Shown here one piece after another: positions 8,652 through 36,599 of a stretch of 64,000 bases of DNA; position 1 is the stretch's first letter; every line of letters begins with the position of its first letter. The notes under the pieces were generated by a model. That model made no database searches, was not told the DNA's origin, and was given only the letters and a program-made list of their open reading frames with translations. The position numbers were made by a program, and so were the translations under genes. The DNA is from Amycolatopsis deserti (GTDB lineage: Bacteria > Actinomycetota > Actinomycetes > Mycobacteriales > Pseudonocardiaceae): NCBI RefSeq assembly GCF_014653945.1, contig NZ_BNAU01000002.1:367914-431913 (forward strand), written 5' to 3'.

Positions 8652-8665
8652 GGCCCGACAGGGGG
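8652..8665 (-). promoter_or_regulatory. CCCCCG-motif, degenerate copy (thiolase operon)
   Basis: On the minus strand this reads CCCCCTGTCGGGCC, two positions off the consensus CCCCCGNACGGGCR seen upstream of neighbouring operons. It points towards the thiolase gene, about 90 nt from its start. It is the weakest member of the set together with 36586. Confidence 0.35.
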
Positions 8666-8682
8666 ATGCCGGTGTGCCACCG

Positions 8683-9108
8683 TCAGATGCGTTGCATCCA
8701 GTGCAGCAGCGCACCGCCGGTCTGCGCGGGGTCGATGAAATGTTCCGCCCAGCCGTCGTGGTCGGCAGACTCCCCGACGATCGCGGCACCGCCGGCGACG
8801 GCCAGCGCCTTGCACGCGCCGATCTCGGTGGTCTCCAGGGAAACGTGGTGCAGCCCGCCGCCCGACTTGGCCAGGTACCTCGTGATCGGGGTGTCAATCC
8901 GGTGCCGCGGAGCGAACACCTCGAGCCGGAGGCCGGCCCCCACTTGGATCCACGACCCGAGGATGTCCAGTTTGTCATCGCCGCCCTCTTCCTCGACGAC
9001 GCCGCCGAGGCAACCCAGGAGAGTGGCGACGACGTCGTGATAACGCTCCTTCGCGGTGACGATGCCGATGTGGTGCAAGGCGAAGAGCGGATCGCCGGAA
9101 GCCGTCAT
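8683..9108 (-). CDS. VOC/glyoxalase-fold protein, methylmalonyl-CoA epimerase-like
   Basis: 141-aa vicinal-oxygen-chelate protein with paired beta-alpha-beta-beta-beta modules: FALHHIGIVT near the N-terminus and GGGLHHVSLET in the middle supply the usual metal-binding His residues. Glu in RLEVFAP is another candidate ligand. ATG 9108 is preceded by GGAGGA at ideal spacing. The fold includes methylmalonyl-CoA epimerase, glyoxalase and ring-cleavage dioxygenases; the length and DILGSWIQVG segment fit an epimerase/lactoylglutathione-lyase-like subgroup. Epimerising an acyl-CoA for the adjacent operon is plausible but inferred. It may be co-transcribed with the thiolase operon, although 120 nt with two candidate regulatory sites separate them. 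Confidence 0.7.
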   Translation of the reverse strand: MTASGDPLFALHHIGIVTAKERYHDVVATLLGCLGGVVEEEGGDDKLDILGSWIQVGAGLRLEVFAPRHRIDTPITRYLAKSGGGLHHVSLETTEIGACKALAVAGGAAIVGESADHDGWAEHFIDPAQTGGALLHWMQRI

Positions 9109-9257
9109 CTGTCCTCCTCCAGAACATGCGGTGGCGCACCGGATCGTGCGGGAACCACCGCAGCGTCGCCGCACGCTGTGCGCGGATCGCGCCCGGATGG
9201 GCGGGTTGCCGACCGTGTGTACCTCGGGATCAGGCAGGGCGACTTCCCCAGCACCCG

Positions 9258-9274
9258 CGAAACCACGTGTTTCG
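9258..9274. promoter_or_regulatory. Palindromic operator candidate
   Basis: CGAAAC and GTTTCG flank a CACGT centre (17 nt, 6-bp perfect arms). It lies 116 nt upstream of the ferredoxin gene and about 24 nt from the CCCCCG motif at 9298. It could bind a dimeric repressor. Confidence 0.35.
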
Positions 9275-9297
9275 ACGCGGGCATGCCAGGGATCCGC

Positions 9298-9311
9298 CCC
9301 CCGTTCGGGCT
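9298..9311 (+). promoter_or_regulatory. CCCCCG-motif (ferredoxin operon)
   Basis: CCCCCGTTCGGGCT in the orientation of the ferredoxin gene, with its GGGC end 80 nt upstream of the ATG. Member of the shared motif set discussed in the findings. Confidence 0.55.
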
Positions 9312-9390
9312 GTCTTTCCCGGCGGAACGAGCCCGACCGTGCCGTCCGGCGCGAAAGTCGGCCTCTGCCTCGATGGAGAAGGAACGCCCG

Positions 9391-9594
9391 ATGACACTGA
9401 AAATCGTCGCGGACATCGCCGCGTGCAAGGGAACCGCCTGCTGCATGATGGAGTCGCCGGACCTGTGCGACGTCGACGAGACGACGGGGAAGGTCGTCGT
9501 CCTGGTCGACGAGATCGACGACGCACGGCGTGCGGACGCGGAAACCGCCGTCCGCGCGTGCCCGACGAAGGCGCTCGAACTCCGGGACTGCTGA
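9391..9594 (+). CDS. [3Fe-4S] ferredoxin
   Basis: 67-aa ferredoxin of the type that serves actinobacterial P450s and Rieske oxygenases. Cluster ligands C12, C18 (after a C17-C18 pair) and C57 in RACPTK; the absent fourth ligand indicates [3Fe-4S]. Acidic surface as usual. ATG 9391 follows GAAGGA; an ATG 18 nt upstream is in frame but has a poorer site. The reductase gene begins 3 nt after the stop, so the pair forms one electron-transfer unit. The P450 at 25106-26350 has no own redox partner and is a likely client. Confidence 0.9.
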   Translation: MTLKIVADIAACKGTACCMMESPDLCDVDETTGKVVVLVDEIDDARRADAETAVRACPTKALELRDC

Positions 9595-9596
9595 CC

Positions 9597-10799
9597 ATGG
9601 ACCGGATCGTGGTCGTCGGCGCGTCCGTCGCGGGCGTCAACGTCGTCGAGGCCCTGCGTCAGGGCGGCTTCGAGGGCGACGTCACGCTGGTCGGCGCGGA
9701 ACCGCAGCTGCCCTACGACCGGCCGCCGCTGTCGAAGGAAGCGCTGAAAGCGGGCCCCGGCGCCGCGGACGTGGCGTTGCGGCCGCGAGATTGGTACGAC
9801 GAACACGGCATCGCGCTGCGGCTCGGTCAGCGCGCGGTGCGCCTTTCCGCGGCCGCCAGGCAGGTCGTGCTCGCCGACGGCAGCCGGCTGCCCTACGACG
9901 GCCTGGTCATCGCCACCGGCTCCGCGGTGCGGACCTGGAACCAGACCGAGCAGACCGGCCCGGTCCGCGTGCTGCGGACGCTGTCCGACGCCGCGGCGCT
10001 GCACGCCGAACTCCGCCCTGGGCGCCACATCGTGATCATCGGGGCCGGGTTCATCGGCCTGGAGATCGCCGCGACCGCCCGCGAACTCGGCCTGGCTGCC
10101 TCGGTGATCGAGATCGAAGCCGCCCCACTCGCCCGCGTGGTCGGGGCGGAGACCGGCCGATGGTTCGCCGACCTGCACGCCGCCCATGGAGTTTCGGTGC
10201 ACGTCGGCAGCAGGATCGAGCGGATCGAGCGGTCCGGCGACCAGTCCAAGATCGCTCTCTCCGACGGGACCCACCTCACAGCCGACCTCGTCGTGGCCGG
10301 AGTCGGGGTCACCCCGGCCACGGCCTGGCTCGGCGGGAGCAACATCTCGATCGACGACGGGGTGGTCTGCGACGCGAGACTGCGCACAACGCTCCCGGGC
10401 GTGGTCGCCGCCGGCGACATCGCCCGCTGGCACAACCCGTTGTTCGGCCACGACATGCGCGTCGAGCACTGGCTCAACGCCGTCGAGCAGGGGAAGCACG
10501 CCGCACTGAGCCTGCTGGGCTCGGACGAGCCCTACACCCACGTCCCGTACTTCTGGTCCGACCAGTTCGGCGAAAAGATCCACAGCGTCGGGATCACCTC
10601 GGACGCCGACGTGTCGGCGGTCCGGCGGCTGGACGCGAACGGCATCTCGGTCGTCTTCGGCCGCCACGGCGTCGTCCGCGGTGCGCTGTGCGTGAACGCA
10701 CCCCGAGACGTCGCCCGTTACCGGCAGGCGATCCGGGACCGCACGCCGTGGGAGGACCTCGTTCCCGAACCGAATCGGAGCCCGCAATGGCCTACGTGA
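9597..10799 (+). CDS. NAD(P)H:ferredoxin reductase (FAD, putidaredoxin-reductase type)
   Basis: 400-aa FAD-dependent pyridine nucleotide oxidoreductase. N-terminal FAD fingerprint VVVGASVAGVNVVEAL, DRPPLSKEAL, ATGSAVR, a second GAGFIGLEIAATARELG fingerprint for NAD(P)H (about residues 143-158), and GVVAAGDIARWHNP for FAD. Glu/Ile after the second nucleotide motif (IEIEAAP) suggests NADH. It moves electrons from NAD(P)H to the preceding ferredoxin and on to a P450. It begins 3 nt after the ferredoxin stop and overlaps the next gene by 13 nt. Confidence 0.92.
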   Translation: MDRIVVVGASVAGVNVVEALRQGGFEGDVTLVGAEPQLPYDRPPLSKEALKAGPGAADVALRPRDWYDEHGIALRLGQRAVRLSAAARQVVLADGSRLPYDGLVIATGSAVRTWNQTEQTGPVRVLRTLSDAAALHAELRPGRHIVIIGAGFIGLEIAATARELGLAASVIEIEAAPLARVVGAETGRWFADLHAAHGVSVHVGSRIERIERSGDQSKIALSDGTHLTADLVVAGVGVTPATAWLGGSNISIDDGVVCDARLRTTLPGVVAAGDIARWHNPLFGHDMRVEHWLNAVEQGKHAALSLLGSDEPYTHVPYFWSDQFGEKIHSVGITSDADVSAVRRLDANGISVVFGRHGVVRGALCVNAPRDVARYRQAIRDRTPWEDLVPEPNRSPQWPT

Positions 10800-12388: not shown

Positions 12389-12402
12389 ACCCCGCGCAAC
12401 AC

Positions 12403-12437
12403 AATGCCGGCCTGATCGGACTGGGCAGGCCGGCATT
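12403..12437. terminator. Perfect 12-bp terminator hairpin
   Basis: AATGCCGGCCTG (12403-12414) and CAGGCCGGCATT (12426-12437) are perfect complements around an 11-nt loop. They lie between the convergent FprB-like gene and the amine-oxidase operon, so the hairpin likely acts in both directions. Confidence 0.85.
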
Positions 12438-15410: not shown

Positions 15411-15424
15411 CCCCCGGACGGGCG
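15411..15424 (+). promoter_or_regulatory. CCCCCG-motif (aldehyde dehydrogenase operon)
   Basis: CCCCCGGACGGGCG, identical over 15 nt (with the next C) to the copy at 22195. Oriented towards the aldehyde dehydrogenase, with its GGGC end 86 nt from the start codon. Confidence 0.6.
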
Positions 15425-15509
15425 CTCAATGCCGGCCACGCCGTCCGCGAGGCGCGGGGTGTGCCTTGAATGGCGCAGCGCCCGGACGAGCTGACGAGCG
15501 AGGGACCCG

Positions 15510-18020: not shown

Positions 18021-18026
18021 TGACGG

Positions 18027-18204: not shown

Positions 18205-18975
18205 CTACTGGACGGTCACGCCGCCGTCGACGACCAAGACCTGCGCCGTCATGTAGTCGGACGCGCGGGAGGCCAGGAAGACCGCGGGGCCGACGAATTC
18301 GGCGGGCTGCGACCAGCGCCCCATCGGCACCTGGTGCCGGATGAAGGTCGCGACGTCCTCGTTCGCCGCCAGGTCCGGCAGCATCGCCGTTTCCACGTAG
18401 CCCGGGGCGATCGCGTTGACCTGGACGCCCTTGCGGGCCCACTCCAGCCCGATCGCGCGGGTCACCCCGATCAGCCCGTGCTTGGCCGCGATGTAGGCGC
18501 TGTCGTTGCGCATCGCGACCAGGCCGAGCACCGAGGCGATGTTGATGACCTTCCCGCCGCCGTCCTTCAGGTACGGCGACGCGGCCTTGGTGAGAAGCCA
18601 GCACGACTGCAGGTTCAGTTCCAGGACCCGCTGCCACACCGACAGGTCCGTCTTTTCGATGGACGAGTCGTGGTCGTCGCCGGCGTTGTTGACGAGGATG
18701 TCGAGGCCGCCCAGCGTCTTCGCCGCATCCTCGACACACGCTTCGATCGCCGCCGGCGAGCGAAGGTCGACCGCGTAAGGGGTGACGCTGCCGGGCGCGT
18801 CGGCGGCCAGTTTCGCGGTCTCCTTCAGGCCGTCTTCCGAGCGGGCGGCACCGATCACGTGCGCGCCCTGGTGCGCGAACCCCACCGCGATCGCCTGCCC
18901 GATGCCGCGGCTGGCGCCGGTCACGAGTGCGCGACGGCCGGTGAGGTCGAAGTCGGGAACGTATGCGTTGGTCAT
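18205..18975 (-). CDS. SDR oxidoreductase
   Basis: 256-aa classical short-chain dehydrogenase: TGASRGIGQA, NNAGDDHDS, a Ser in NIASVLGLVA, YIAAK as the catalytic Tyr-Lys motif, and GYVETAM. C-terminal AQVLVVDGGVTVQ is standard. It resembles gluconate/3-oxoacyl reductases, but the substrate cannot be read from the sequence. ATG 18975 is preceded by CACC only, so the ribosome site is weak. It stands alone, with a CCCCCG motif at 19029-19042 pointing at it 54 nt upstream, and would join the same regulon as the amine-oxidation genes. Confidence 0.88.
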   Translation of the reverse strand: MTNAYVPDFDLTGRRALVTGASRGIGQAIAVGFAHQGAHVIGAARSEDGLKETAKLAADAPGSVTPYAVDLRSPAAIEACVEDAAKTLGGLDILVNNAGDDHDSSIEKTDLSVWQRVLELNLQSCWLLTKAASPYLKDGGGKVINIASVLGLVAMRNDSAYIAAKHGLIGVTRAIGLEWARKGVQVNAIAPGYVETAMLPDLAANEDVATFIRHQVPMGRWSQPAEFVGPAVFLASRASDYMTAQVLVVDGGVTVQ

Positions 18976-19028
18976 GGCGGCACCATGGCAGCCGATCCGC
19001 CGCCGCCCGCACGGCCGAAGACGAAAAC

Positions 19029-19042
19029 AGCCCGATCGGGGG
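19029..19042 (-). promoter_or_regulatory. CCCCCG-motif (SDR gene)
   Basis: Minus strand CCCCCGATCGGGCT, oriented to the SDR, GGGC end 54 nt from its ATG. It abuts the stop codon of the adjacent regulator gene. Confidence 0.55.
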
Positions 19043-19043: not shown

Positions 19044-21353
19044 TCAGCCGGCGTTCTTCCGTTGCTGGGCGATCCAGTTCGCGATCTGGGTGCGTGTCGT
19101 GAAGCCCAGCTTCGTCAGCGCCTTCTCGACGTGCCCGTCGACGGTCCGCGTGGACAGGACCAAGCGCGCCGCGATGTCCCGGTTGGTCAGTCCCTCCGCC
19201 ACCAGCTCGGCGACCTCACGTTCTCGCTTCGTCAGGACGGAGCCCTGCTTCCGCGTCGCGGCTGACGCCGTGGACAGTTCTCCCAGGGCCAGCGCGAAAG
19301 CGGCGTCGGGGTGCAGAGCGCGCCCCCGGTCGAACGCGGCCTGGAACTCCGCCTCCCCCAGCTGCTTCCGGGCCATCTGCTCGAACCGCGCGTGGTGCTC
19401 GATCAGGTGCACCGACCCGACCAGCGGCGACCCGAGGGATCCCCACAACGTGGCGGAGCCGCCGAACAGCGCGGCCGCCCGATCACCGTGTCCCTGCGCC
19501 GCCATCGTCCAGGCCAGGAGGTCGAGCGCGAGGGCGAGCCCGAGCGTGTCGTGGAACATCCGCTTGATCCGGATCGCCTCGGTCAGATCGGCTTCCGCCT
19601 GCTCCGGCTTCCCGGCGAGCAGGTTCAGCAGGCCGCGCACCCACAACGCGTAGGAGAACTGCCACCGTTCCCCGACCTGGGCGCAGTGGTCGAAGAACTC
19701 CTCGAGCACCCGCGCGGCCCGATCGAAATCTCCGGCCAGGACGAGCACACACGCCATCTCCGTGCGCAGGAGATCCGGGTACTGCTGCTCCACCTCGCTC
19801 TGTTCGTACTGCTCGAGCGCTTCGTCGAACAGGGCGATCGCCTCCGACAGGTCGGCGTCGAAGTAGTGGCCCACGGCCAGAACGTGCTTCGCGTAGGCCC
19901 GCACACCGGGGTCGTCGAGGTGCTCAGCGAGCTCGGCCGCCTGCCGGGCCAACCGGGTCGCTCCGGGCTCGTCTCCCTGAACGCTCGCGAGGTAGGCGGT
20001 GGTCGCCAGGCCCCACGCCCGTTCCCGGGTCGGTTCCGGACAGAGCGGCAACGCCCGCTCCAGCCACAGCCGGCCCTCGGTGATGTGGTCCATGGCCAGC
20101 CAGAACCACACCATGCCGGCCATGCGCAGACCCCGGCGCGCGGTTCCCCGATCCGAGAGGCACGCCTCGAACGCGCGGCGCAGGTTGGCGTGCTCCGCGC
20201 GCAGCCGCCCCGCCCACTCCAGCTGCCGGGGACCGCCCCACTCCGTGTCGGCTTGTTCCAGGAGACCGGCGTAATAGTCGCGATGCCGGTGGTGCACCGC
20301 GGACTCCGCGCCGGTTTCGGCGAGGCGGGCCTGTCCGTATTCGCGCAGGGTTTCGAGGATGGCGAACCGGGCGTGCCCGTCCCGGTCTTCCCGGATGAAG
20401 ACCGACTTGTCGAGCAGGCCGGCGACCGTGTCGAGGACAGCTCGGGCAGGCAGTGTCTCGTCGGTGCAGACCGCCTCGAGCGCCGCCGCGTCGAATCCGC
20501 CTGCGAACACGGACGCCCGGGCCCACAGCACCTGCTCGCCCGGAGTACACAGTTCGTAACTCCAGTCGACCAGTGCCTGCAGCGTCCGGTGCCGCTCCGG
20601 GTCGTCGCGGTTGCCCTCGCGTAGCAGCTGGAACCGGTCGTCGAGCCGGCGCTCGAGATCGTCGACGCTGAGCACCCGCAGCCGCACCGCCGCCAGCTCG
20701 ATCGCCAACGGAATCCCCTCCAGCCGGCGACACAGCCGCACGACCGCCTGCTCGTTGGCCGCGGTGAGCTCAAATCCGGGAACGACCGCCGCCGACCGCT
20801 CAGCGAACAGCGCGACAGCCGGGAACCGGGTCGCGGTGCCCGGTTCCAGCGGTTCGCCCGGTTCGGGCACCGGCAGCGGCGGCACCGGGAAGACGTGCTC
20901 GCCGGTCAGGCGGAGGGCCTGCCTGCTGGTGGCGAGCACCCGGACGTGCGGCGCGGCCCGCAGCACCTGGCCGGTCAGCTCCCCGGCGGCGTCGATGAGG
21001 TGCTCGCAGTTGTCCAGGACGAGCAGCATGCGGCGGTCCCGCAGGTGGTCACACACGATCGCGGCCGGTGGCCGGGCCGACTGCTCGCTGATCCCCAGCG
21101 CGTCCACCACCGTGTGCGGCAGCAACGCGGGATCCTTCAGCGAGGCCAGCTCGACCAGGCACGTCCCGTCCGGGAATGCCCTACGCACCTCGGCGGCCAC
21201 GCTCAGGGCGAGCCGCGTCTTCCCCACCCCGCCGATGCCGGTCAAGGTCACCAGCCGGGCGGTGGTCAGCAACTGCCGGACGGCGGCGACGTCCTGCCGG
21301 CGTCCGACGAAGCTCGTGAGGTCGGCGGGCACGGTGCTCGGCTTCTCTGCCAT
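19044..21353 (-). CDS. LuxR-family regulator with AfsR-like ATPase and TPR-like domain
   Basis: 769-aa transcriptional regulator. N-terminal SFVGRRQD start of the NB-ARC/COG3903 ATPase, Walker A TGIGGVGKTRLA (about 38-49), Walker B MLLVLDNCEHL, then a helical repeat region (about 350-650). C-terminal GerE/LuxR helix-turn-helix with LTKREREVAELVAEGLTNRDIAA and STRTVDGHVEKALTKLGF. Such proteins are usually activators whose ATPase and repeat part senses a small molecule or partner. It is divergent from the receiver-LuxR gene at 21527. A paralogue of the same length lies at 22727, so one effector system may be duplicated. A role in controlling the CCCCCG motif regulon is inferred from position. 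Confidence 0.9.
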   Translation of the reverse strand: MAEKPSTVPADLTSFVGRRQDVAAVRQLLTTARLVTLTGIGGVGKTRLALSVAAEVRRAFPDGTCLVELASLKDPALLPHTVVDALGISEQSARPPAAIVCDHLRDRRMLLVLDNCEHLIDAAGELTGQVLRAAPHVRVLATSRQALRLTGEHVFPVPPLPVPEPGEPLEPGTATRFPAVALFAERSAAVVPGFELTAANEQAVVRLCRRLEGIPLAIELAAVRLRVLSVDDLERRLDDRFQLLREGNRDDPERHRTLQALVDWSYELCTPGEQVLWARASVFAGGFDAAALEAVCTDETLPARAVLDTVAGLLDKSVFIREDRDGHARFAILETLREYGQARLAETGAESAVHHRHRDYYAGLLEQADTEWGGPRQLEWAGRLRAEHANLRRAFEACLSDRGTARRGLRMAGMVWFWLAMDHITEGRLWLERALPLCPEPTRERAWGLATTAYLASVQGDEPGATRLARQAAELAEHLDDPGVRAYAKHVLAVGHYFDADLSEAIALFDEALEQYEQSEVEQQYPDLLRTEMACVLVLAGDFDRAARVLEEFFDHCAQVGERWQFSYALWVRGLLNLLAGKPEQAEADLTEAIRIKRMFHDTLGLALALDLLAWTMAAQGHGDRAAALFGGSATLWGSLGSPLVGSVHLIEHHARFEQMARKQLGEAEFQAAFDRGRALHPDAAFALALGELSTASAATRKQGSVLTKREREVAELVAEGLTNRDIAARLVLSTRTVDGHVEKALTKLGFTTRTQIANWIAQQRKNAG

Positions 21354-21434
21354 GGGGTCCCTACGTGCGCGGACGGAGTGCGATCGGGCGATCGTACGTC
21401 CGCGTCCCGGCGGTCAGCCAGGCGATGGAACCCC

Positions 21435-21450
21435 CACACAGGTAGGTGTG
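21435..21450. promoter_or_regulatory. Inverted repeat between divergent regulators
   Basis: CACAC and GTGTG flank AGGTAG in the 173-nt gap between the divergent regulator genes starting at 21353 and 21527. The 5-bp arms are short, so this is only a candidate operator. No CCCCCG motif with the full GGG half occurs in this gap. Confidence 0.25.
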
Positions 21451-21526
21451 CGGGTAGTTTCCCGCGTGCCCCCGTCGCCCTGCGCAGTGATTCTGGGCAC
21501 AGCTTCGAACTGCGGAGGTGTTGCGA

Positions 21527-22186
21527 ATGACCCTGGTCACCGTCGATCGGGTCGAAATGGACGACGAACGGGCACCCGACGACCGCTGCCAGGTCCAGCA
21601 GGTGCTGGTGGTGGACGAGAACGAGCTCGTGCTGGCCGGGCTGCGCGCGCTGCTGTCGGCCGAGCGGTGGGTGGGCTCCTGCCTCACGGCCGGCTCGGCG
21701 GATGCGGCGTGGCAGGTGGCCAGGCGGCAGAACCCGCAGCTGGTGCTCGTCAGCACGTCACTCGGCGGACGGTCCGCGCTGGAGCTGTGCCACACGTTCA
21801 AGGAGCGGATGCCGCACGTCCGGATCGTCCTGATGTCCGGCGAGGGACGCCTGTCGGCGGCCTCGGCCCAGCTGCACGGCGCCGTCGCGGCCGTCCCGAA
21901 GCAGATGCCGGCCGCCGCGATCGTGTCGACGATCCGCCGCGTCGCGGCGGGCGCGCGGGTATTCGCCAAAGGCGCGGCGTCGACCTTGCCGGAACAGCTG
22001 TCGCAGCGCGAACTGTCCGTTTTGCAGCACTTGGCCCTGGGGATGAGCAACCAGGAGGTCGCGGAGGCGCTGTGCCTGTCCCGCTGGACGGTCAAGCAGC
22101 ACACCAGCGCCGTCTATCGCAAGCTGGGCGTGCGTAACCGCGCGGGCGCGGCCAGCCGCGCCCAGCACCTGGGCCTGCTGCCCTGA
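21527..22186 (+). CDS. Orphan LuxR-family response regulator with degenerate receiver
   Basis: 219 aa. N-terminal receiver-like fold (about 25-145: QVLVVDENELVLAGLRALL) and C-terminal NarL/LuxR helix-turn-helix (LSQRELSVLQHLALGMSNQEVAEAL, SRWTVKQHTSAVYRKLGV). The strand that should end in the phosphoacceptor Asp reads QLVLVSTSLGG, so Asp is replaced by Ser; the acidic pocket is reduced to D-E, and the conserved Lys is still seen in AVPKQMP. Phosphorylation by a histidine kinase is therefore unlikely, and no kinase gene is nearby. ATG 21527 follows GGAGG at 8 nt. It probably acts as a constitutive or ligand-controlled DNA-binding protein. Confidence 0.85.
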   Translation: MTLVTVDRVEMDDERAPDDRCQVQQVLVVDENELVLAGLRALLSAERWVGSCLTAGSADAAWQVARRQNPQLVLVSTSLGGRSALELCHTFKERMPHVRIVLMSGEGRLSAASAQLHGAVAAVPKQMPAAAIVSTIRRVAAGARVFAKGAASTLPEQLSQRELSVLQHLALGMSNQEVAEALCLSRWTVKQHTSAVYRKLGVRNRAGAASRAQHLGLLP

Positions 22187-22194: not shown

Positions 22195-22208
22195 CCCCCG
22201 GACGGGCG
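22195..22208 (+). promoter_or_regulatory. CCCCCG-motif (RidA gene)
   Basis: CCCCCGGACGGGCG oriented towards ridA-like gene, GGGC end 53 nt upstream of its ATG, preceded by GAT as at 33540 and 26466. Confidence 0.6.
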
Positions 22209-22260
22209 CTGTCCCGATCGAAAGCCCCGATTCCACCCCGAGAAAGGACATGGTGCGCGC

Positions 22261-22726: not shown

Positions 22727-25036
22727 TTGGTGTCTGAGCCTTCGACGCCGGAAACCGCTCTGCCTGCCGACGTTTCGAGCTTCGTCGGCAGGCACAGCGA
22801 CCTGGAGTCGATCCGGCGACTGTTCTCGTCCGCGCGGATGGTGACGCTCGTCGGCATCGGCGGGGTCGGCAAAACGCGGCTGGCGCTTCGGGCCGCCGAC
22901 GAGATGCGACGGGCGTTCCCCGATGGTGTCTGCCTGGCCGAACTCGCCTCGCTCACCGAACCCGATCTGCTTCCCCACGCGGTGCTCGACGCGCTGCGAA
23001 TCCGCGAACGGCCCGAAGTGGACGCTGCGGTCGCGCTCGACGAGCACGTGCGCGACCGCAGGATGCTCCTGGTGCTGGACAACTGCGAGCACCTCGTCGA
23101 CGCCGTGGCTGCCCTCGTGGGCCGGCTCCTGCGCTCGGCACCCGATCTGAAGGTGCTCGCGACCAGCCGGCACGCACTGCGCATCGCGGGCGAGCACCTC
23201 TACCCGGTGCTGCCGCTGCGCGTGCCTGACCCCGACGGACCGTCCGAAGACGGCACCGCACTGGACTATTCGGCGGTCGCGCTCTTCCGGGACCGCGCGA
23301 CCGCCGCGATGCCAGGATTCGCGATCACCGCGGACAACGAAGCCGCCATCGTCCGGTTGTGCCGGCGTCTCGAAGGCATTCCGCTGGCGATCGAACTCGC
23401 CGCCGCGCGGCTGCGGGTCCTGACCCTGCCGGAACTGGCCAACCGCCTCGACGACCGCTTCGAGCTGCTCCGGGAGGGCATCCGCGATCTCCCGGACCGG
23501 CACCGGACGCTCGGCGCGTTGATCGACTGGAGCCACGACCTCTGCACGCCCGCCGAACAGCTCCTGTGGGCGCGCGCTTCAGTCTTCGCGGGCGGATTCG
23601 CGGTCGACGCGCTGGAGGCAGTCTGCACCGACGACCTCCTGCCGCCCGCGGTCCTCCTGGACACCCTCGCCGGTCTCGTCGACAAATCCGTCGTCTCCCG
23701 CGAGGAGCACGGTGGGCAGGTCCGGTTCCGGATGCTGGAGACGATCCGCGAGTACGGCCAGGCCCGCCTGGCCGAGTCGGGCGAAGGTCCGTCCCTCGCC
23801 CGGCGGCACCGGGACTGGTTCGCCGACCTCGTGAACACCGCGACGCGACAGTGGGCGGGCCCGCGTCAGGTGGACTGGGCCGTGCGGCTGCAGCTCGATC
23901 ACGCGGACATCCGGCTGGCGCTCGAGTACTCGATGACCCGCCCCGGCGAGGTGGCGACCGGACTCCGGATCGCGGCCCAGCCGTGGTTCTGGTCGGCGAC
24001 GGACCATCTGAACGAGGCTCGGGTGTGGCTGGACCGAGGGTTGGCCCAGTTGTCGGAGCCGTCCCACGAGCACGCCTGGGCGCTGGCGACGCGCGCCTAC
24101 ATCGCGGCCTTCCGCGGAGACGACGCCGCGCTGCACGAGATGCCGGAGCGGGCCCGCGACATGGCGCTCGACCTCGGCGACCAGCCGGCCCTCGCGCTCG
24201 CCAACCACGTGATCGGATTCCGCCGGGCGCTCGGGCACGGCGAGATCCGGTCCGCGATTCCGTTGTTCACCGAAGCGATGCGGCAATACGACAAGACCGG
24301 GATGGCCGCTCAATACCACGACGCCGCCGTGGTCGAGCTGGCGACGACGTACGCGCTCTTGCACGAATTCGACAACGCCATGGAACTGGCCGACGACCTC
24401 TTCGAGCGCTGCCGCTCGAAGGGCGAGCGCTGGAACCTCTCGTACGCGATGTGGTTGCGCGCACTGATCTCCTTGCTCAAGAAGGAGAACCCGCACCGAG
24501 CAGAGGAGACCCTGCTGGAGGTGCTGCGCATCAAGCGGGTCTTCCGGGACACGCTCGGACTGGCCCTGACGCTCGAAGTGCTCGCCTGGGCGACCGCGGC
24601 GAAAGGCGAGGCGGAGCGCGCAGGAGTGCTCGTCGGCGGCACCGACCGGATCTGGCGGACGATCGGCTCCCGTCATCTGCAAGGCAAGCGCGCGCACTAC
24701 GAGGCGCTGGCCCGCGCGAGCGTCGGCGACAGCTGTTACGAAGCCGCCCGCGCACGCGGCGGCGAACTCGGTGTCGACGAGCTGCTGCGGTACGCGTTGC
24801 CCGAGGCCACGGGCGGCACAGCTCCCCCACCCCCGCCAACCCGCCTGACCCGCAGGGAACGCCAGGTCGCCGAATTGGTCGCCGAGGGCATGTCCAACCG
24901 CCAGATCGCCGAGGAACTGGTGATCTCCCGGCGCACCGCCGAAGGGCACGTGGAGAAGGTTCTCGCCAAACTGGGCTTCACGGCCCGTACTCAGATCGCG
25001 ATCTGGATAGCCCGGAACCCGGCAGGAGACCGCTGA
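22727..25036 (+). CDS. LuxR-family regulator with AfsR-like ATPase domain (paralogue)
   Basis: 769 aa, same layout and length as the product of 19044-21353: SFVGRHSDL, Walker A VGIGGVGKTRLA, MLLVLDNCEHLVD, ATSRHALRI, helical repeats and C-terminal LuxR HTH (LTRRERQVAELVAEGMSNRQIAEELVISRRTAEGHVEKVLAKLGF). The strong end-to-end similarity indicates duplication. Start is TTG 22727 or GTG 22730; GGAGG lies 6 or 9 nt upstream respectively. It follows ridA by 64 nt and could be read through from its promoter. Likely a DNA-binding activator of the surrounding catabolic genes. Confidence 0.9.
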   Translation: MVSEPSTPETALPADVSSFVGRHSDLESIRRLFSSARMVTLVGIGGVGKTRLALRAADEMRRAFPDGVCLAELASLTEPDLLPHAVLDALRIRERPEVDAAVALDEHVRDRRMLLVLDNCEHLVDAVAALVGRLLRSAPDLKVLATSRHALRIAGEHLYPVLPLRVPDPDGPSEDGTALDYSAVALFRDRATAAMPGFAITADNEAAIVRLCRRLEGIPLAIELAAARLRVLTLPELANRLDDRFELLREGIRDLPDRHRTLGALIDWSHDLCTPAEQLLWARASVFAGGFAVDALEAVCTDDLLPPAVLLDTLAGLVDKSVVSREEHGGQVRFRMLETIREYGQARLAESGEGPSLARRHRDWFADLVNTATRQWAGPRQVDWAVRLQLDHADIRLALEYSMTRPGEVATGLRIAAQPWFWSATDHLNEARVWLDRGLAQLSEPSHEHAWALATRAYIAAFRGDDAALHEMPERARDMALDLGDQPALALANHVIGFRRALGHGEIRSAIPLFTEAMRQYDKTGMAAQYHDAAVVELATTYALLHEFDNAMELADDLFERCRSKGERWNLSYAMWLRALISLLKKENPHRAEETLLEVLRIKRVFRDTLGLALTLEVLAWATAAKGEAERAGVLVGGTDRIWRTIGSRHLQGKRAHYEALARASVGDSCYEAARARGGELGVDELLRYALPEATGGTAPPPPPTRLTRRERQVAELVAEGMSNRQIAEELVISRRTAEGHVEKVLAKLGFTARTQIAIWIARNPAGDR

Positions 25037-26350: not shown

Positions 26351-26452
26351 CAGACCCTCCAGAATTCGATCGCGAACCGCGGTGCGCGGCTGAAGTTCCT
26401 GCTCCAGTGGTACCGGTTCCGCCTGGCCGGAAACGAGATCCGCGGCGGACCA

Positions 26453-26466
26453 CGCCCGTTCAGGGG
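26453..26466 (-). promoter_or_regulatory. CCCCCG-motif (intact P450 gene)
   Basis: Minus strand CCCCTGAACGGGCG, one mismatch from consensus, pointing at the P450 start about 102 nt away and preceded by GGACGAT as at 33540. It is part of an inverted pair with 26500. Confidence 0.5.
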
Positions 26467-26499: not shown

Positions 26500-26513
26500 C
26501 CCCCGAACGGGCA
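26500..26513 (+). promoter_or_regulatory. CCCCCG-motif (broken P450 gene)
   Basis: CCCCCGAACGGGCA pointing at the P450 pseudogene, GGGC end 84 nt before its ATG. The promoter element is intact although the gene is not. Confidence 0.55.
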
Positions 26514-26596
26514 GATCCGCAGCGTTCGCCCCGATGTGAAGTCCGGATGCGAGTGAATGGGCACCACGTCCACACCGACCGAAAGGAGCGCCGTTC

Positions 26597-27647
26597 ATGA
26601 GCAATGAGATGATCGGAGCTGCTGGTACGAGCACCGGAATTCACCGCATCGACGATCTCCCGGTCTTCACCGAGATCGAGTCACCGGACTTCGGCGCCGA
26701 CCTGGACTGGATCGCCGACGATCTGTGCCGACGGGACTATCAGGGACTGCTGAGGCACGACAACCTCGGTGTGGTCGTCTACCGGAACGCCGACCTCATC
26801 GCGCTCGGCACGCACCAGGACGTCAGCCACCAAGACGTGCTGAACGACGTCGAGGGCTCCAGGACCGCTTCATGCGCGCCAGCACCTTCGGCATGCAGCC
26901 ACCGGAACATCGGCCCGCCAAGTCCCTGATCAGCAGGGAGCTCACGCCCAAGAGCGTGCGCCGTTTCCAAGACGCCGCGAACCAGGCGGTGCGCGGTGCG
27001 CTGGACTCGGTCGCCGGGCGTCCGGAGATCGACTTCGTGCCGGAGTTCGTCCATCCGGTGCTGGCCGGTTTCTGGCAGACGGTGCTCGGCTTGACACCGG
27101 CCGAAAGCGACGAGATCTTCGCGATGCTGCCTGATTTCTTCCTCCCGAGTCCGAGCACGTTGTTCGCCGCTGCCGCGCCCGCGGTGTTGAACGCGTCCGG
27201 CAGCGCCACCCCGAAGTGGGTGCACACGTTTTCCGGACGCCCGAGCTCGCCCATGTTCGCGTGATCGCTCGCGAGATCGACGAGCAGGTCGTGCTTGTCG
27301 GTGCTCATTTCGCGCTCCAGCGCCGCGGTGATCAGGTCGATGAACCGGTTGGCGGCGCGCGTCGCACCCCTCTCGCCATGCTGTGGGCGTTCGGCAACCG
27401 GGACCCGGAAACGTATGAAAAGCCCAACGAGTACCGGTTGGAACGGGACCACCGAGCCTTGCAGACCACCTTCGGCACCGGTTTCTACACCTGCCCGGGC
27501 CGCCACGTCGCAAAGCTGATCAGCGAAACGATCCTCTCCGCGCTCTGCGACTCCTCTCTCGAGGTCGTCGTCAACGACGTCGAGGAGGGCCAGGCGTCCT
27601 TCGTCCACGAGCCGGCACGGATGGTCGTGTCGATCCGTGAGTCGTGA
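26597..27647 (+). pseudogene. Cytochrome P450 pseudogene with frameshift and internal inversion
   Basis: The N-terminal part (26597 to about 26853) and the continuation from about 26855 (LQDRFMRASTFGMQPPEHR to MLPDFFLPSPS) are in different plus-strand frames, so about one base is lost. From about 27160 to 27362 the P450-like sequence is on the minus strand: AANRFIDLITAALEREM, HDLLVDLASDHANMGE, RPENVCTHFGVALPDAF and the I-helix TAGAAAAN. The plus strand resumes at 27366 with TPLAMLWAFGNRDPETYEKP and the haem loop FGTGFYTCPGRH. The G-to-I-helix block is thus flipped in place, and the J/K-helix part with the ExxR motif is missing. It cannot make a working P450. It begins with a normal ATG and AAAGGAG site. 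Confidence 0.8.
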
Positions 27648-27886
27648 AGCGGCCCGCCGTGGCTGAAGAAGTCAGCTTCGAACGCGACATCAAACCGCTG
27701 TTCCGGGAGCAAGACGTCCGCGTCATGCGCTACGCGTTCGACCTGTCGTCCTACGCCGATGTCCGCCCGCGCGCGGAACTGATCTACGAGCACATCGAGG
27801 ACGGCACGACGCCCTGTGACGTCCTGTGGCCAGAGGAAGATCTGGCTTTGCTCCGCGCCTGGATCGACGGCGGAAAACAACCATGA
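27644..27886 (+). CDS. Conserved small hypothetical protein
   Basis: 80 aa from GTG 27644 (GTGA overlap with the P450 pseudogene stop), or 75 aa from GTG 27659. Sequence contains FERDIKPLFREQDVRVMR, FDLSSYADVRPRAELIYEHI, DGTTPCDVLWPEEDLALLRAWIDGG. This resembles the end of cytochrome-c-like/planctomycete-type C-terminal modules (…MPC.G.W…LLRxWIDxG) but there is no CxxCH haem site. The reading frame is intact and coupled to the former P450, so it may have been its partner. Function unknown. Confidence 0.65.
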   Translation: MKRPAVAEEVSFERDIKPLFREQDVRVMRYAFDLSSYADVRPRAELIYEHIEDGTTPCDVLWPEEDLALLRAWIDGGKQP

Positions 27887-27893
27887 CAACACA

Positions 27894-27933
27894 GCGAAGG
27901 CCTCCGGTCGCCCGCACGACCGGAGGCCTTCGC
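27894..27933. terminator. Perfect 17-bp terminator hairpin
   Basis: GCGAAGGCCTCCGGTCG (27894-27910) pairs perfectly with 27917-27933 around a 6-nt loop, between two convergent genes. Confidence 0.9.
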
Positions 27934-27950
27934 CGTTCCGCCTCGCCGTG

Positions 27951-30860: not shown

Positions 30861-30939
30861 GTGGTTCTCCAGTCTGTGCTCGAGTCGCCGAGACGGTAAT
30901 CACATCGCCACAGCGCCGGGCCGTTCCCTGCCGATTGCG

Positions 30940-30953
30940 CACCCTTACGGGGG
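30940..30953 (-). promoter_or_regulatory. CCCCCG-motif (permease operon)
   Basis: Minus strand CCCCCGTAAGGGTG, oriented to the permease, 80 nt from its start. The site is 76 nt from the divergent cupin start and its core is near-palindromic, so it could serve both genes. Confidence 0.55.
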
Positions 30954-33036: not shown

Positions 33037-33128
33037 CGGACCATGACTCCAGTTCTGGCTGTGCGGACGGACTACCGCACTACTCTGTCCCGTAGAGGTC
33101 GCGCGGTCCGGCGACGAGGACCTTTGTC

Positions 33129-33142
33129 TGCCCCTTCGGGGG
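33129..33142 (-). promoter_or_regulatory. CCCCCG-motif (CoA-ligase gene)
   Basis: Minus strand CCCCCGAAGGGGCA pointing at the ligase, about 92 nt from its start codon. Confidence 0.5.
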
Positions 33143-33254
33143 AACCGACTGGTCGGCCTACCCGATTCCCGCACTCTCTGTGCCCGCGCATCCGAGGCCG
33201 CCGTGCTGGCGCCGGACGATCAGACGATGAGTACAGGCAAGCAACGCCCGGGAC

Positions 33255-33482
33255 ATGACGCATGTGTCGGCGTTTGCGGCCTCACGGGAGCAGCGAGCAG
33301 TCGCAACTCCCCGCGGCTACGTCGCCTACTCGGGCAGCAACACAGCGTGGGCGCCAGGCGAGCAACTGCTGAACGGCTTTGGGACAACCCGCTTTTCTGC
33401 CGGTCCAGCCGGGCTGAGCCCGGCGCTGCCGCAAGGCATGGCGGAGTTCTACATCACCTCGCTCAACGCCTTCATCGAGTAG
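33255..33482 (+). CDS. Short open frame, unrecognised
   Basis: 75 codons from ATG 33255 (LLNGFGTTRFSAG, LPQGMAEFYITSLNAFIE). No ribosome site is obvious and no family was recognised. The composition of its second half looks protein-like, so it may be the tail of a lost gene. It lies in the 569-nt gap between the CoA ligase and the saccharopine-dehydrogenase-like gene; apart from it and the three regulatory candidates listed, nothing else is visible in that gap. Confidence 0.25.
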   Translation: MTHVSAFAASREQRAVATPRGYVAYSGSNTAWAPGEQLLNGFGTTRFSAGPAGLSPALPQGMAEFYITSLNAFIE

Positions 33483-33513
33483 ACGGCGTACCTGCTCCCC
33501 GCCGAGGTTCCGG

Positions 33514-33527
33514 CGCACTCGAGTGCG
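33514..33527. promoter_or_regulatory. Perfect 14-bp palindrome
   Basis: CGCACTCGAGTGCG is its own reverse complement. It ends 12 nt before the CCCCCG motif that precedes the saccharopine-dehydrogenase-like gene, so it could be a second regulator site of the same promoter. Confidence 0.3.
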
Positions 33528-33539
33528 GCACCGGACGAT

Positions 33540-33553
33540 CCCCCGTACGGGCA
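33540..33553 (+). promoter_or_regulatory. CCCCCG-motif (reductase/oxidase operon)
   Basis: CCCCCGTACGGGCA with GGGC end 53 nt before ATG 33606, preceded by GGACGAT. This is the copy closest to the derived consensus. Confidence 0.6.
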
Positions 33554-33605
33554 CATCACAGCCGCGCGAAGCGCCGGCCGGCCGCCGCACACCCACACTG
33601 CCGCT

Positions 33606-34784
33606 ATGACAGCAGCTCCCGAGAATCCCCGTGCCCCCAAGCGCATCCTGGTGACCGGCGGCGCCGGCGAGATGGCCGGCTACGCCTGCCGCGCCCTCGC
33701 GCAGGCTGACGAGGTCGAGACGATCGTGATCTCCGACCGCGACCACGACCGCGCCGCCGCCCTCGCCGCCGAGCTCGGCGCGAAGGCCCAAGCGGCGGGG
33801 CTGGACATCTCGGACTCCAGGGCACTCCGTGCGGCGCTGCAAGATGTCGACGTCGTGCTCAACTGCGCGGGCCCCTTCTACCGCTTCGGCCGGGAAGTTC
33901 TGGCCGCGGCGATCGCGACCGGCACGCACTACCTCGACATCTGCGACGACTGGGAACCGACGCTGGAGATGCTCGAACTGGACGGCGCGGCGCGGGGTGC
34001 GGGCGTCACCGCGGTCATCGGCATGGGCGCGAGCCCCGGTACCAGCAACCTGCTCGCGATGCTCTGCATGAACCGTCTCGACGAGGTCGAGCGGGTCTAC
34101 ACCGCCTGGCGCATCGGCGGTCTCAAGCCACCGCCCCCGGGCGAGGAGGACAGGCCGAACGCCGCGGGCGAGCATTGGATCCACAACTGCACCGAACCGA
34201 TCAAGGTCCGCCGCGGCGGCGAACTCGTCGACTCCTACGCCCTCGACGAGATCAAACTCAGCTACCCCGGCGTCGGCGAGGACTCGGCCTGGGTCTGCGG
34301 TCATCCAGAGCCCCTCACGCTCCCGCGGGTGCGTCCCGAGATCCAGGAGTCGTACAACCTGATGGTCGCACGCCGCGGCCTGATGGAAGCCCTTCAGCGG
34401 ATCGCCCAACGCGTGCGGGCCGGCGAACTCGACGTCCCCGGTGCCGCCAAGGCGATCGTGCACGAACCGAACATCAACGGCCCCGCGGCCGGACCCGCCA
34501 CCATTCACCGAGACCTCTTCGCGGTGGCCGAAGGCGTCAAGGACGGCGTACCCACGCGTGTCGGCGCGTCGCCGCTGATCATCCCGGCCGCGAACATGGG
34601 CGAGGTCACCGGCTACCCGCTCGCGGTCGCCGCCCTGATGCTGTGCCGGGGCCAGGTCACGGCGCTCGGCGTGCACGGACCCGAAGGCGCGGTGGATCCG
34701 GACCTCTACTTCGAGCAACTCGCGCGGTTCGTCGACAACCGCCCCGACGGCCCGGTCGTCGAAGTCGTCGCCGAGCGGATCTGA
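33606..34784 (+). CDS. Saccharopine dehydrogenase-like NAD(P)-dependent reductase
   Basis: 392 aa. N-terminal Rossmann domain ILVTGGAGEMAGYACRAL, ISDRDHDRAAAL and DVVLNCAGPFYRFG are typical of the saccharopine dehydrogenase/homospermidine synthase-like family, which makes or breaks C-N bonds through imine intermediates; the central part (GASPGTSNLLAML) fits as well. ATG 33606 has no strong ribosome site. The DAO-type oxidase follows 15 nt downstream, so both act on related amino compounds. The exact substrate is unknown. Confidence 0.85.
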   Translation: MTAAPENPRAPKRILVTGGAGEMAGYACRALAQADEVETIVISDRDHDRAAALAAELGAKAQAAGLDISDSRALRAALQDVDVVLNCAGPFYRFGREVLAAAIATGTHYLDICDDWEPTLEMLELDGAARGAGVTAVIGMGASPGTSNLLAMLCMNRLDEVERVYTAWRIGGLKPPPPGEEDRPNAAGEHWIHNCTEPIKVRRGGELVDSYALDEIKLSYPGVGEDSAWVCGHPEPLTLPRVRPEIQESYNLMVARRGLMEALQRIAQRVRAGELDVPGAAKAIVHEPNINGPAAGPATIHRDLFAVAEGVKDGVPTRVGASPLIIPAANMGEVTGYPLAVAALMLCRGQVTALGVHGPEGAVDPDLYFEQLARFVDNRPDGPVVEVVAERI

Positions 34785-34799
34785 AACGGTGTCCTCCCT

Positions 34800-36089
34800 A
34801 TGAACATGACGTACCTGTCCGGCAGCGGCTGGGCCGACCGGCCGACGACGCTCGAACCGGCCGCGGACGGCAACCTGTCCTGCGAGATCGCGGTGCTCGG
34901 CGGCGGGCTGGGTGGGATGGCGGCCGCGCTGCGGCTCGCCGAACTCGGCCACGACGTCATCCTGGTGGAAGCGGACGTCTGCGGATGGGGTGCCAGCGCG
35001 CGTAACGCCGGCTACGTGACCGGGACCGTTGGCAGCGACCCCCGGATCCTCTCGCGCTTCTACCCCGATCGCGCGGCAGGACTCTTCCGGTTCGCCAGGA
35101 ATGCGGTGACACACACCGAGAAACTGATCGCCAGTCAGGACATCGACTGCGGTTACCGGCAGACCGGCGTCTTCTCCGCGGCGCCCACAGCGGCAGGGTT
35201 CCGGCGCGTCCGCGCGACCACCAAGTCGGGCAAGCGATCAACGGTGGCCACCGCCGACCAGGCCGGGATTCCACCAGCTTTCCACGGCGGAGTCCACGTC
35301 CACGTCGGCGGCATCCTCAACCCCGGCGAGTTCGCACTCGGCGTCCGGGACCTGGTTCGCGCATCGACGATCCGGGTCTTCGAGCAGACACCGGTGCAGC
35401 ACGTCGCCGACACCGGTGACTCGGTGGAGATCGCGGTGCCAGGCGGGCGGATCCGGGCCGAACGAGCGATCCTGACGACCAACGCGTTCACGAACCAGCT
35501 CGAAATCGCTCCGCGCCGTCTCAGTACCCCGGTGTGGGTGACCGCGGTCGAAACCGAGCCGGTGCCCCCCGAGATGCTCGACGATGCCGGCTGGACCAGC
35601 CGGGTCCCGATCGTCACCACCCACCTGCTCATGCAGAGCTTCCGGACGACAGACCGGAACACGATCGTTTTCAGCACCCGGAAGCTCCAGATGTCGCGGC
35701 ACCCGAAGGCTGACCGGCTGCCGGACCGGGCCGTTGTGGACGACCTCGTCCGCGGCTTCCGCGAACGCTTCCCCACGCTGGGCGACATCTCGCCGCGGCG
35801 GGCGTGGGGAGGATGGATCGGAATGACGCCCGCGAACCTGGCAGTCGCCGGCCAGGCGACCCCCCGGGTGGCGTATTCCATGGCCTGCAACGGACACGGC
35901 CTGCCACAAGCACCGTATCTCGCCACCCTGCTCGCCGATCACCTGGCTGGGGAAGCAATGCACGACGACCTCCGCACCGTCTGGCGGGAGTCGCCGCGCT
36001 TCGCCCCCGGCGTCGTCAACCCGGCGACCATTCGTCTCGGCTGGCTCGCCGACCGGCTGACCGACCGCCTCGGCCGCCTCCGCCGGTGA
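34800..36089 (+). CDS. DAO-family FAD-dependent amine/amino-acid oxidase
   Basis: 429-aa glycine-oxidase/gamma-glutamylputrescine-oxidase-type flavoprotein. N-terminal FAD fold IAVLGGGLGGMAAALRLAEL, VEADVCGWGASARNAGYVTG (a PuuB-like signature), central HVGGILNPGEFALGVRDLV, and RRAWGGWIGMTPANL with SMACNGHGLPQAP at the C-terminus. It oxidises a secondary or primary amine to an imine with H2O2. Two ATGs (34800, 34806) are possible. Its last 74 nt overlap the 3' end of a convergent gene for a zinc-ribbon protein. Confidence 0.9.
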   Translation: MNMTYLSGSGWADRPTTLEPAADGNLSCEIAVLGGGLGGMAAALRLAELGHDVILVEADVCGWGASARNAGYVTGTVGSDPRILSRFYPDRAAGLFRFARNAVTHTEKLIASQDIDCGYRQTGVFSAAPTAAGFRRVRATTKSGKRSTVATADQAGIPPAFHGGVHVHVGGILNPGEFALGVRDLVRASTIRVFEQTPVQHVADTGDSVEIAVPGGRIRAERAILTTNAFTNQLEIAPRRLSTPVWVTAVETEPVPPEMLDDAGWTSRVPIVTTHLLMQSFRTTDRNTIVFSTRKLQMSRHPKADRLPDRAVVDDLVRGFRERFPTLGDISPRRAWGGWIGMTPANLAVAGQATPRVAYSMACNGHGLPQAPYLATLLADHLAGEAMHDDLRTVWRESPRFAPGVVNPATIRLGWLADRLTDRLGRLRR

Positions 36090-36492
36090 CCGGCCTGGGT
36101 GCTTCCCACCGCTCACGATTGTGGTCCCGGGCCTGCCGAGCGGCGACGATGCTCGCTCGGCAGGCCCGGAGCAATTGGCGGTTCGCGACGCTGTCCAACG
36201 CCCTGCCGCAACGCGGGCAGGTGACGACGACCGCGCCCGTCAACTCGTCGACCGCGACGATCGCGGCGACGTCGCAACTGCGGCACCACCGATGCCCGGA
36301 AACCCGGATCGCGTGCGCGGGCGAAGAAACGCACTGGTAAAGCCACCGGCGATGCACCGGGCAACTGACCCGATCGTGCGGCGACAGACCGATGCGCTCC
36401 TCGGCGGCGTCCTCACGTCGCAAGGTCGCGGCGAGCTGCCGGCCACCGGTCGGCGACGGTGTCGGCGGGAAGACCTGCGCGGGATTCGACAT
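36016..36492 (-). CDS. Cys/His-rich zinc-ribbon-like hypothetical protein
   Basis: 158 aa with likely metal ligands in CPVHRRW, CVSSPAH, HRWCRSCD and CPRCGRALD, consistent with two small zinc-binding knuckles. The C-terminal 35 residues are low-complexity and basic and lie opposite the end of the DAO gene (74-nt overlap). Codon periodicity in the Cys-rich part favours this strand as coding. Actinomycetes carry families of such short proteins of unknown function. ATG 36492 has no clear ribosome site. Confidence 0.6.
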   Translation of the reverse strand: MSNPAQVFPPTPSPTGGRQLAATLRREDAAEERIGLSPHDRVSCPVHRRWLYQCVSSPAHAIRVSGHRWCRSCDVAAIVAVDELTGAVVVTCPRCGRALDSVANRQLLRACRASIVAARQARDHNRERWEAPRPVTGGGGRGGRSAGRRASRDEWSPG

Positions 36493-36585
36493 AGCGAAAG
36501 CATCACCGCTCCAGGCTCATCCCGGATGCGCGAAGGTACCTGTTTCCCTACCTCGCCCAGGCTGTTGGTGCACCGGCCCACCGGT

Positions 36586-36599
36586 CCCCCGGCTGGGCA
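36586..36599 (+). promoter_or_regulatory. CCCCCG-motif, divergent copy (enoyl-CoA hydratase)
   Basis: CCCCCGGCTGGGCA, two mismatches from consensus, but its GGGC end is 54 nt before the ATG, the same distance as at 19029, 22195 and 33540, which supports it. Confidence 0.45.

Follow-up and report, generated by a model that had tools for sequence, protein, structure and literature searches.

The closest described systems are LAL-type activators of actinomycete catabolic genes. TpdR of Rhodococcus jostii TMP1, a 788-aa LAL activator, works at promoter PTTMP, in which an essential box outside the core promoter spans −79 to −65, as given in the available text of PMC6099782, and PcaO is the LAL activator of pcaHG in Corynebacterium glutamicum (available part of PMC9582017). 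Here we describe a 14-bp motif that precedes eleven predicted promoters in a 28-kb catabolic gene cluster of Amycolatopsis deserti. The cluster is part of a 64,000-nt stretch of contig NZ_BNAU01000002.1 (forward-strand positions 367,914 to 431,913), which was analysed as a whole and is called the window.

The locus is reminiscent of the TpdR system, in which a LAL activator likewise serves an actinomycete catabolic operon for a nitrogen compound from a box located upstream (available text of PMC6099782), and the present cluster encodes two LALs, LAL1 and LAL2, with AAA_22 and GerE domains above the Pfam cut-off. PcaO resembles the present case in regulator type, being likewise a LAL-type activator that serves actinomycete catabolic genes (available part of PMC9582017). 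The differences lie in the site. The proposed TpdR site is, in the same available text of PMC6099782, a 15-nt direct repeat, TnnAAnnGCGGAnTC, at one operon, whereas the motif described here is a polar pseudo-dyad at 11 promoters, each with one strong site; the TpdR box is not enriched in the window (2 matches with at most one mismatch in 64 kb vs 2.96 expected). Among LuxR-type helix-turn-helix (HTH) proteins more broadly, NarL binds two inverted heptamers and the boxes of MalT are direct repeats (available text of PMC6099782); the inverted repeats of NarL-type sites resemble the CCCG-NN-CGGG core of our motif, while, in contrast to MalT, the present site is an imperfect inverted repeat with unequal half-sites in 11/11 copies.

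An earlier note on this DNA had listed the eleven sites as intergenic and directed toward the nearest downstream gene. All eleven were found at the coordinates and on the strands claimed, all lie between genes, and each faces the next gene. The feature that unites the promoters is the distance from the motif to the −10 box: a hexamer of the form nANNNT starts at offset 41 or 42 from the motif in 8/11 sites, compared with a mean of 0.62 over all 103 spacings. The most informative downstream column is T at offset 47 (8/11), followed by A at offset 43 (7/11). This A and T correspond to the two fixed bases of the actinomycete −10 element, which is TAnnnT and lies on average 6.3 nt before the transcription start, according to the available text of PMC8079986. 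With one signal at a near-fixed distance before 11 promoters, it is probable that a single activator turns on the whole cluster together. The promoters are listed below with their motifs and matrix scores.

8605..8665, minus strand: promoter of the beta-oxidation operon (thiolase to acyl-CoA dehydrogenases); motif CCCCCTGTCGGGCC at 8652-8665, −10 GACCGT at 8610-8605 (offset 42), predicted leader 36 nt, score 11.7 (weakest)
9298..9358, plus strand: promoter of the ferredoxin/ferredoxin-reductase operon; motif CCCCCGTTCGGGCT at 9298-9311, −10 GAAAGT at 9353-9358 (offset 42), predicted leader 26 nt, score 15.9
15411..15471, plus strand: promoter of the aldehyde dehydrogenase/alcohol dehydrogenase unit; motif CCCCCGGACGGGCG at 15411-15424, imperfect −10 TTGAAT at 15466-15471 (offset 42), with T at offset 47 and no nANNNT, score 16.2
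18982..19042, minus strand: promoter of the short-chain dehydrogenase/reductase (SDR) gene 18205-18975; motif CCCCCGATCGGGCT at 19029-19042, −10 CATGGT at 18987-18982 (offset 42), predicted leaderless, no Shine-Dalgarno (SD) sequence found, score 16.3
22195..22254, plus strand: promoter of RidA-LAL2; motif CCCCCGGACGGGCG at 22195-22208, −10 CATGGT at 22249-22254 (offset 41), predicted leaderless, AAGGA-like SD sequence 12-13 nt before the start, score 16.2
26406..26466, minus strand: promoter of the P450 gene 25106-26350; motif CCCCTGAACGGGCG at 26453-26466, imperfect −10 TACCACT ending at offset 47 (T), score 15.4
26500..26558, plus strand: promoter of a second, apparently broken P450-like gene; motif CCCCCGAACGGGCA at 26500-26513, imperfect −10 GTGAAT at 26553-26558 (offset 40), score 18.4 (best)
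30893..30953, minus strand: promoter of the amino-acid permease/BBE oxidase unit; motif CCCCCGTAAGGGTG at 30940-30953, −10 TACCGT at 30898-30893 (offset 42), predicted leader 26 nt, score 13.5
33082..33142, minus strand: promoter of the acyl-CoA ligase gene (start moved by eye to 33036); motif CCCCCGAAGGGGCA at 33129-33142, −10 CAGAGT at 33087-33082 (offset 42), predicted leader 39 nt, score 16.0
33540..33599, plus strand: promoter of the saccharopine-dehydrogenase-like/DAO pair; motif CCCCCGTACGGGCA at 33540-33553, −10 CACACT at 33594-33599 (offset 41), predicted leaderless, no SD sequence found, score 18.0
36586..36646, plus strand: promoter of the enoyl-CoA hydratase gene; motif CCCCCGGCTGGGCA at 36586-36599, −10 GACTCT at 36641-36646 (offset 42), predicted leaderless, no SD sequence found, score 12.4

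The extended consensus is TCCCCCGNNCGGGCR, and the columns at offsets 2, 4 and 5 after it are A/T-rich. Its core is a dyad, CCCG-NN-CGGG, with a 2-bp centre, in which pairs 3/12 and 4/11 are complementary in 11/11 sites, pair 5/10 in 10/11 and pair 6/9 in 7/11. Pair 2/13, by contrast, is complementary in 0/11 sites, with C opposite C in ten and C opposite T in one, and the motif therefore has a true direction; reading the opposite strand costs each of the 11 sites 6.4 to 16.3 bits. The AT content is 53% at offsets 1-6, vs 19-27% at offsets 7 to 34, and what the flanks have in common is limited to a few A/T columns, a T preceding the motif, and the −10 box.

We scored the window with a 14-column matrix trained on the same 11 sites that it scores. 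The nine top-scoring places of the window are nine of the claimed sites, and a score of at least 15 is reached by 8 places in the window vs 0 in 400,000 bases of own-genome background, which comprises 20 stretches outside the window, of which two overlap by 12 kb and three were picked for carrying exact motif copies. Fifty first-order Markov sequences reach that score with a mean of 0.18 and a maximum of 1. In leave-one-out scoring, 8 sites retain 12.6-17.5. The earlier note had staked its reading on a comparison with sites inside genes and in random DNA; that comparison was run and brought no refutation, as 11 of the 15 background matches with a score of at least 12 lie in predicted open reading frames (ORFs) and 0/15 have a −10 box at 41-42. 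Four non-sites in the window, at 50862, 5190, 46864 and 16662, score at least 11.7. The two at 50862 and 46864, which score at least 12 and both lie inside long ORFs, are right of 38 kb, where the earlier note had noticed no copy; in the upstream regions there (11 units, 200 nt, same strand) the best score is 7.6. The note's 'almost every operon' becomes 11/14 units as drawn here: units with a site score 11.7-18.4, whereas the amine-oxidase operon AO2-AO1 (best 3.9), LAL1 (4.1) and the response regulator gene (4.7) have none.

Exact copies give the same picture. CCCCCGNACGGGCR occurs 7 times in the 7.74-Mb genome, with 4 copies in the 28-kb cluster; the 3 outside copies all lie in predicted ORFs and carry C at the N position, as do 0/11 of the sites. 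Of the 11 genome-wide copies of CCCCCGDWCGGGC, 6 are in the cluster, and the five elsewhere have, by eye, no −10 box at 41/42; the cluster promoter layout is absent from the other own-genome copies examined. Counting mismatches gives no excess in the window, with 28 matches observed vs 26.4 expected at up to two mismatches and 180 vs 223 at up to three. Genome-wide, CCCCCGDWCGGGC with up to one mismatch gives 292 matches vs 280 for the reversed control, so degenerate copies alone carry no meaning, and the signal is visible only through exact copies or the weighted matrix.

The alignment with the −10 box was evaluated by cyclic shifts of the flanks. The sum of columns A43 and T47 is reached by 0/20,000 shifts over all 11 sites. 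The seven leadered units by themselves have a sum of 11 of 14, also reached by 0/20,000 shifts, and the spacing result therefore holds without the leaderless units. A weaker statistic is the same-sequence count, which 1 of 20,000 shifts equals over all 11 sites and 20 of 20,000 over the leadered seven. By themselves, the leaderless four give no significant spacing in this procedure, because their −10 box is at offset 41 in two and at offset 42 in two.

The earlier note had placed the motif at set distances from the start codon, in classes of 53-54, 80-86 and about 90-104 nt. The corrected gaps from motif end to start codon are 52-53 (four units), 79-85 (four) and 89-102 nt (three). A near-constant spacing does exist, but it runs from the motif to the −10 box (41-42 nt, 8/11) and not to the start codon; the start-codon classes arise because leader lengths differ. 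With the transcription start predicted 7 nt after the −10 box, it coincides with the A of the ATG in four units, namely SDR (18975), RidA (22261), saccharopine-dehydrogenase-like (33606) and enoyl-CoA hydratase (36653), and the units of the 52-53 class are thus predicted to have leaderless mRNAs. Four other units have predicted leaders of 26-39 nt, and arithmetic gives leaders of about 32-49 nt for the three with imperfect boxes. An SD-like tetramer is present 4-13 nt before the start in 7/7 leadered units, vs 1/4 leaderless units (RidA), an independent feature that fits this model. For comparison, 17% leaderless is the figure given for Streptomyces lividans in the available text of PMC8079986. 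The motif centre lies about 60 bp upstream of the predicted start, and no conserved −35 hexamer was found, the 11 promoters having at most 3 of 6 matches to TTGACA. Such a layout, with a motif near −60 (a class I-like position) and no −35 hexamer, would be as expected of an activator-dependent promoter.

We consider it quite probable that the motif is the site of a cluster-specific activator working from upstream, a LuxR-type HTH regulator, most likely LAL1 and/or LAL2. A dimer of the regulator would occupy TCCCCCGNNCGGGCR, with its centre some 60 bp upstream of the transcription start, and would bring RNA polymerase to promoters with a −10 box but no recognisable −35 box. Given the nearly fixed distance from motif to −10 box, the 11 units would all respond at once, presumably to a pathway substrate or intermediate as inducer. 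As RidA-LAL2 is one of the units with a site, most LAL2 would be produced after the system has been switched on, giving positive feedback by auto-activation, while LAL1 and the pseudo-receiver protein would be expressed from promoters lacking the motif. Three LuxR-HTH proteins encoded in the middle of the cluster are the candidate binders.

19044..21353, minus strand: LAL1, a 769-aa ATPase/TPR/LuxR-HTH regulator, with Pfam GerE, AAA_22, NB-ARC and TPR_12 above cut-off; own promoter without the motif (best 4.1)
21518..22186, plus strand: LuxR-HTH response regulator, with Pfam Response_reg and GerE; upstream region without the motif (best 4.7)
22727..25036, plus strand: LAL2, a 769-aa LAL regulator, with Pfam GerE and AAA_22 above cut-off; second gene behind the 22195 site

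The two LALs share 54% identity. The genes for LAL1 and the response regulator diverge from a 164-bp gap (21354-21517) that lacks the motif; by eye, this gap carries another inverted repeat, CCCGCACACCTACCTGTGTGGGGG, at which some other regulator may act as at an operator. A LAL is, on balance, the binder that we would expect; some protein other than these three is a doubtful candidate. It is also conceivable, though rather improbable, that LAL1 and LAL2 bind together, each reading one half-site (TCCCCCG / NYGCCCG). Such a heteromeric pair would thereby explain the conserved break in symmetry and the direction of the promoters and, with LAL2 inside the regulon and LAL1 outside, would form a self-reinforcing switch.

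The response regulator itself is an unlikely binder. It would act as an orphan NarL-type LuxR-HTH dimer with a dead receiver, and the LALs would act elsewhere or as its partners. NarL-type dimer sites are expected to have a two-base centre, as the CCCG-NN-CGGG core has, and the gene is located between LAL1 and the RidA-LAL2 unit. Furthermore, its receiver reads QLVLVSTSLGG, with Ser-Thr-Ser or Ser at what we take, by eye, to be the place of the phosphoacceptor Asp; because this Asp is replaced, the protein is probably not phosphorylated in the usual way. A pair broken in 11/11 sites would nevertheless be odd for a symmetric homodimer, and plasmid relatives are at most 32-35% identical among the best 10 of 617. 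We think it less plausible still that the site is the operator of a repressor. Operators common to a whole cluster are frequent in catabolic clusters, but the site lies outside the core promoter, with some 42 nt between its end and the −10 box, and the spacing within 1 bp in 8/11 promoters, the polarity of the motif and the missing −35 box all argue against an operator.

The imperfect inverted repeat could in principle act as RNA, as a terminator, attenuator or leader hairpin, or be left over from a mobile repeat. This is very unlikely, as the motif lies upstream of the predicted transcription start, its core would form a stem of 4 bp with a 2-nt loop, and the flanks are not common beyond the few columns named above. 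A selection by eye of G+C-rich 14-mers in 70% GC DNA would account for the flat mismatch counts, but not for the exact copies, the matrix scores, the intergenic-only placement and the alignment with the −10 box, a feature unused in choosing the sites; chance is disfavoured for the whole set of 11 and seems to us the most far-fetched explanation of those considered.

Several observations weigh against activation of the whole cluster by a LAL. The scoring matrix derives from the sites that it scores. Sites 36586 (12.4) and 8652 (11.7) fall within the background score range, and leave-one-out scores are only 7.7-8.7 for 8652, 30940 and 36586; the two weakest sites, 8652 and 36586, are backed mainly by the position of their −10 box. 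A single column is weaker than the pair, the best T column being reached by 31 (T47, all 11) and 77 (leadered seven) of 20,000 shifts, and the largest column information is reached by 24 of 5,000. The −10 boxes are imperfect in 3/11 promoters (15411, 26453 and 26500). The AO2-AO1 operon has no site although it is expected in the same pathway, so the inclusion of amine-oxidation genes in the regulon, as first proposed, fails for the amine-oxidase operon itself. Finally, the proposal that the 769-aa LuxR/ATPase proteins are the binders is so far unsupported: the matrix found no convincing copy in the Nocardia albiluteola locus (61% LAL1 identity) or in three Rhodococcus plasmid loci (58%), and upstream of two LAL paralogs in the genus (4 and 8 sequences) there are conserved blocks and, by eye, no conserved motif copy. 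The specificity for the motif may have changed among LAL relatives, or the binder may be another protein. What is supported of the original proposal is a polar, activator-type site and a single regulon, here of 11/14 units.

Relatives of LAL1 were drawn from 200 family genomes, genome contigs and plasmids. In 117 loci of such relatives (8 own-genome), CCCCCGNNCGGGC with up to one mismatch has 222 copies vs 194 for the reversed pattern, and there is thus little or no enrichment near LAL1 relatives. A stricter form of the motif has 7 copies outside predicted ORFs in these loci, one of which (Streptomyces, L066) has nANNNT at the right spacing and six of which do not. Of 57 exact copies in 56 listed loci of genus and family genomes, 3 have a −10 box at 41/42, vs a mean of 2.0 for any spacing. 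CCCCCGDACGGGCR is present in at least one copy in 116/200 family genomes; the 4 copies of the own genome fall in a span of 18.2 kb, and among the matches listed for the 200 family genomes no further genome has three copies within 30 kb. Nor did a second dense cluster of exact copies appear among the matches listed for 19 genus and 200 family genomes.

An orthologous cluster was likewise not found in the sampled genome searches. The 26 loci around genus matches contain no homologs of cluster genes at E<=1e-8 beyond ordinary SDR, aldehyde dehydrogenase and alcohol dehydrogenase genes. AO2 has a match in 0/199 other family genomes at E<=1e-70, BBE oxidase in 0/396 other order genomes at E<=1e-100, and the saccharopine-dehydrogenase-like protein in 4/393 other class genomes at E<=1e-70 (42-44% identity), whereas LAL1 has one in 177/200 family genomes at E<=1e-60.

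Several individual candidates in relatives were rejected. A 14.3-scoring place in Rhodococcus plasmid loci L172 and L173 has no nANNNT at 41/42 in its flank, and its counterpart in L171 lies inside an acetoacetate-CoA ligase gene. In a 4-2-4 word search of L171, CCCG..CGGG occurred in 3/20 upstream regions; shuffled sequences usually reach a maximum of three as well, and one palindrome shared by divergent genes accounts for two of the regions. The repeated CTCCCGGTCGGGC in Nocardioides L088 has one copy inside a predicted ORF and another without a −10 box at the right distance. Close upstream of a LAL paralog on contig C5 of the own genome is a 12.1-scoring match on the opposite strand, facing away; TAACGT lies at offset 45, 3 nt too far, and the match is not kept in three aligned relatives. 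Two further features of these loci were seen in passing. L171, from a Rhodococcus opacus plasmid, has two CCCGNACGGG palindromes 42 bp apart (4975 and 5017) around the point where a small hypothetical gene begins. In the region upstream of the C5 paralog, a block CACGACCCCACCGATCACCG is kept in 4/4 aligned sequences (L237, L234-L236), and a −10-like TAGGCT lies 6 nt before the GTG of this gene, which may be leaderless.

The enzymes of the cluster suggest the breakdown of an amine-bearing alicyclic compound. The first site-bearing unit encodes thiolase, two SDRs, MaoC and acyl-CoA dehydrogenases, with the thiolase above NCBIfam cut-off NF005890 (761.6 vs 580 bits), and the ferredoxin unit encodes a small ferredoxin (named by eye), a ferredoxin reductase and an iron-sulfur flavoprotein. 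CYP125-type proteins are the closest solved structures to the P450 (E 4.5e-81), and AO2 is similar to monoamine oxidases, with cyclohexylamine oxidase lower in the list.

Three further regions of the window were noted. Positions 26597-27886, behind the strongest site (26500), contain no intact gene but, by eye, P450-like pieces across different plus-strand frames; a minus-strand frame also resembles a P450 in part, which would fit a frameshift or an internal inversion of the gene, or else an assembly error. The C-terminal piece alone matches Pfam p450, weakly (E 0.0016), and the other pieces and the minus-strand ORF give no match. Between these remnants and the BBE oxidase gene, 27891-27936 is an inverted repeat whose 20-nt arms are 95% complementary and enclose a 6-nt loop, possibly a terminator. 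To the right of the cluster, 40199-46551 encodes an IclR-type regulator, a PucR/GAF regulator and a P450-reductase fusion, the last with P450 and Fer2 domains and a weak NAD-binding match; the motif is absent upstream of all three.

Regulons in which a cluster-situated activator acts at an upstream site are a familiar kind, as the comparison with TpdR illustrates. New, as far as checked, are the motif, the regulon, and one activator geometry common to predicted leaderless and leadered mRNAs; five exact versions of the motif were not found in a text search of a set of open-access papers. At sequence level, the analysis predicts 11 transcription starts, four of which would give leaderless mRNAs, and a compact regulon with a site so clean that a single experiment could identify the protein that binds it. 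LAL regulators are frequent in the family, and the proposed site of TpdR is the single LAL binding site that we found in the available texts. With its two LALs, one pseudo-receiver and 11 near-identical sites, the cluster is a good test case, and its promoter logic could serve as an actinomycete expression tool.

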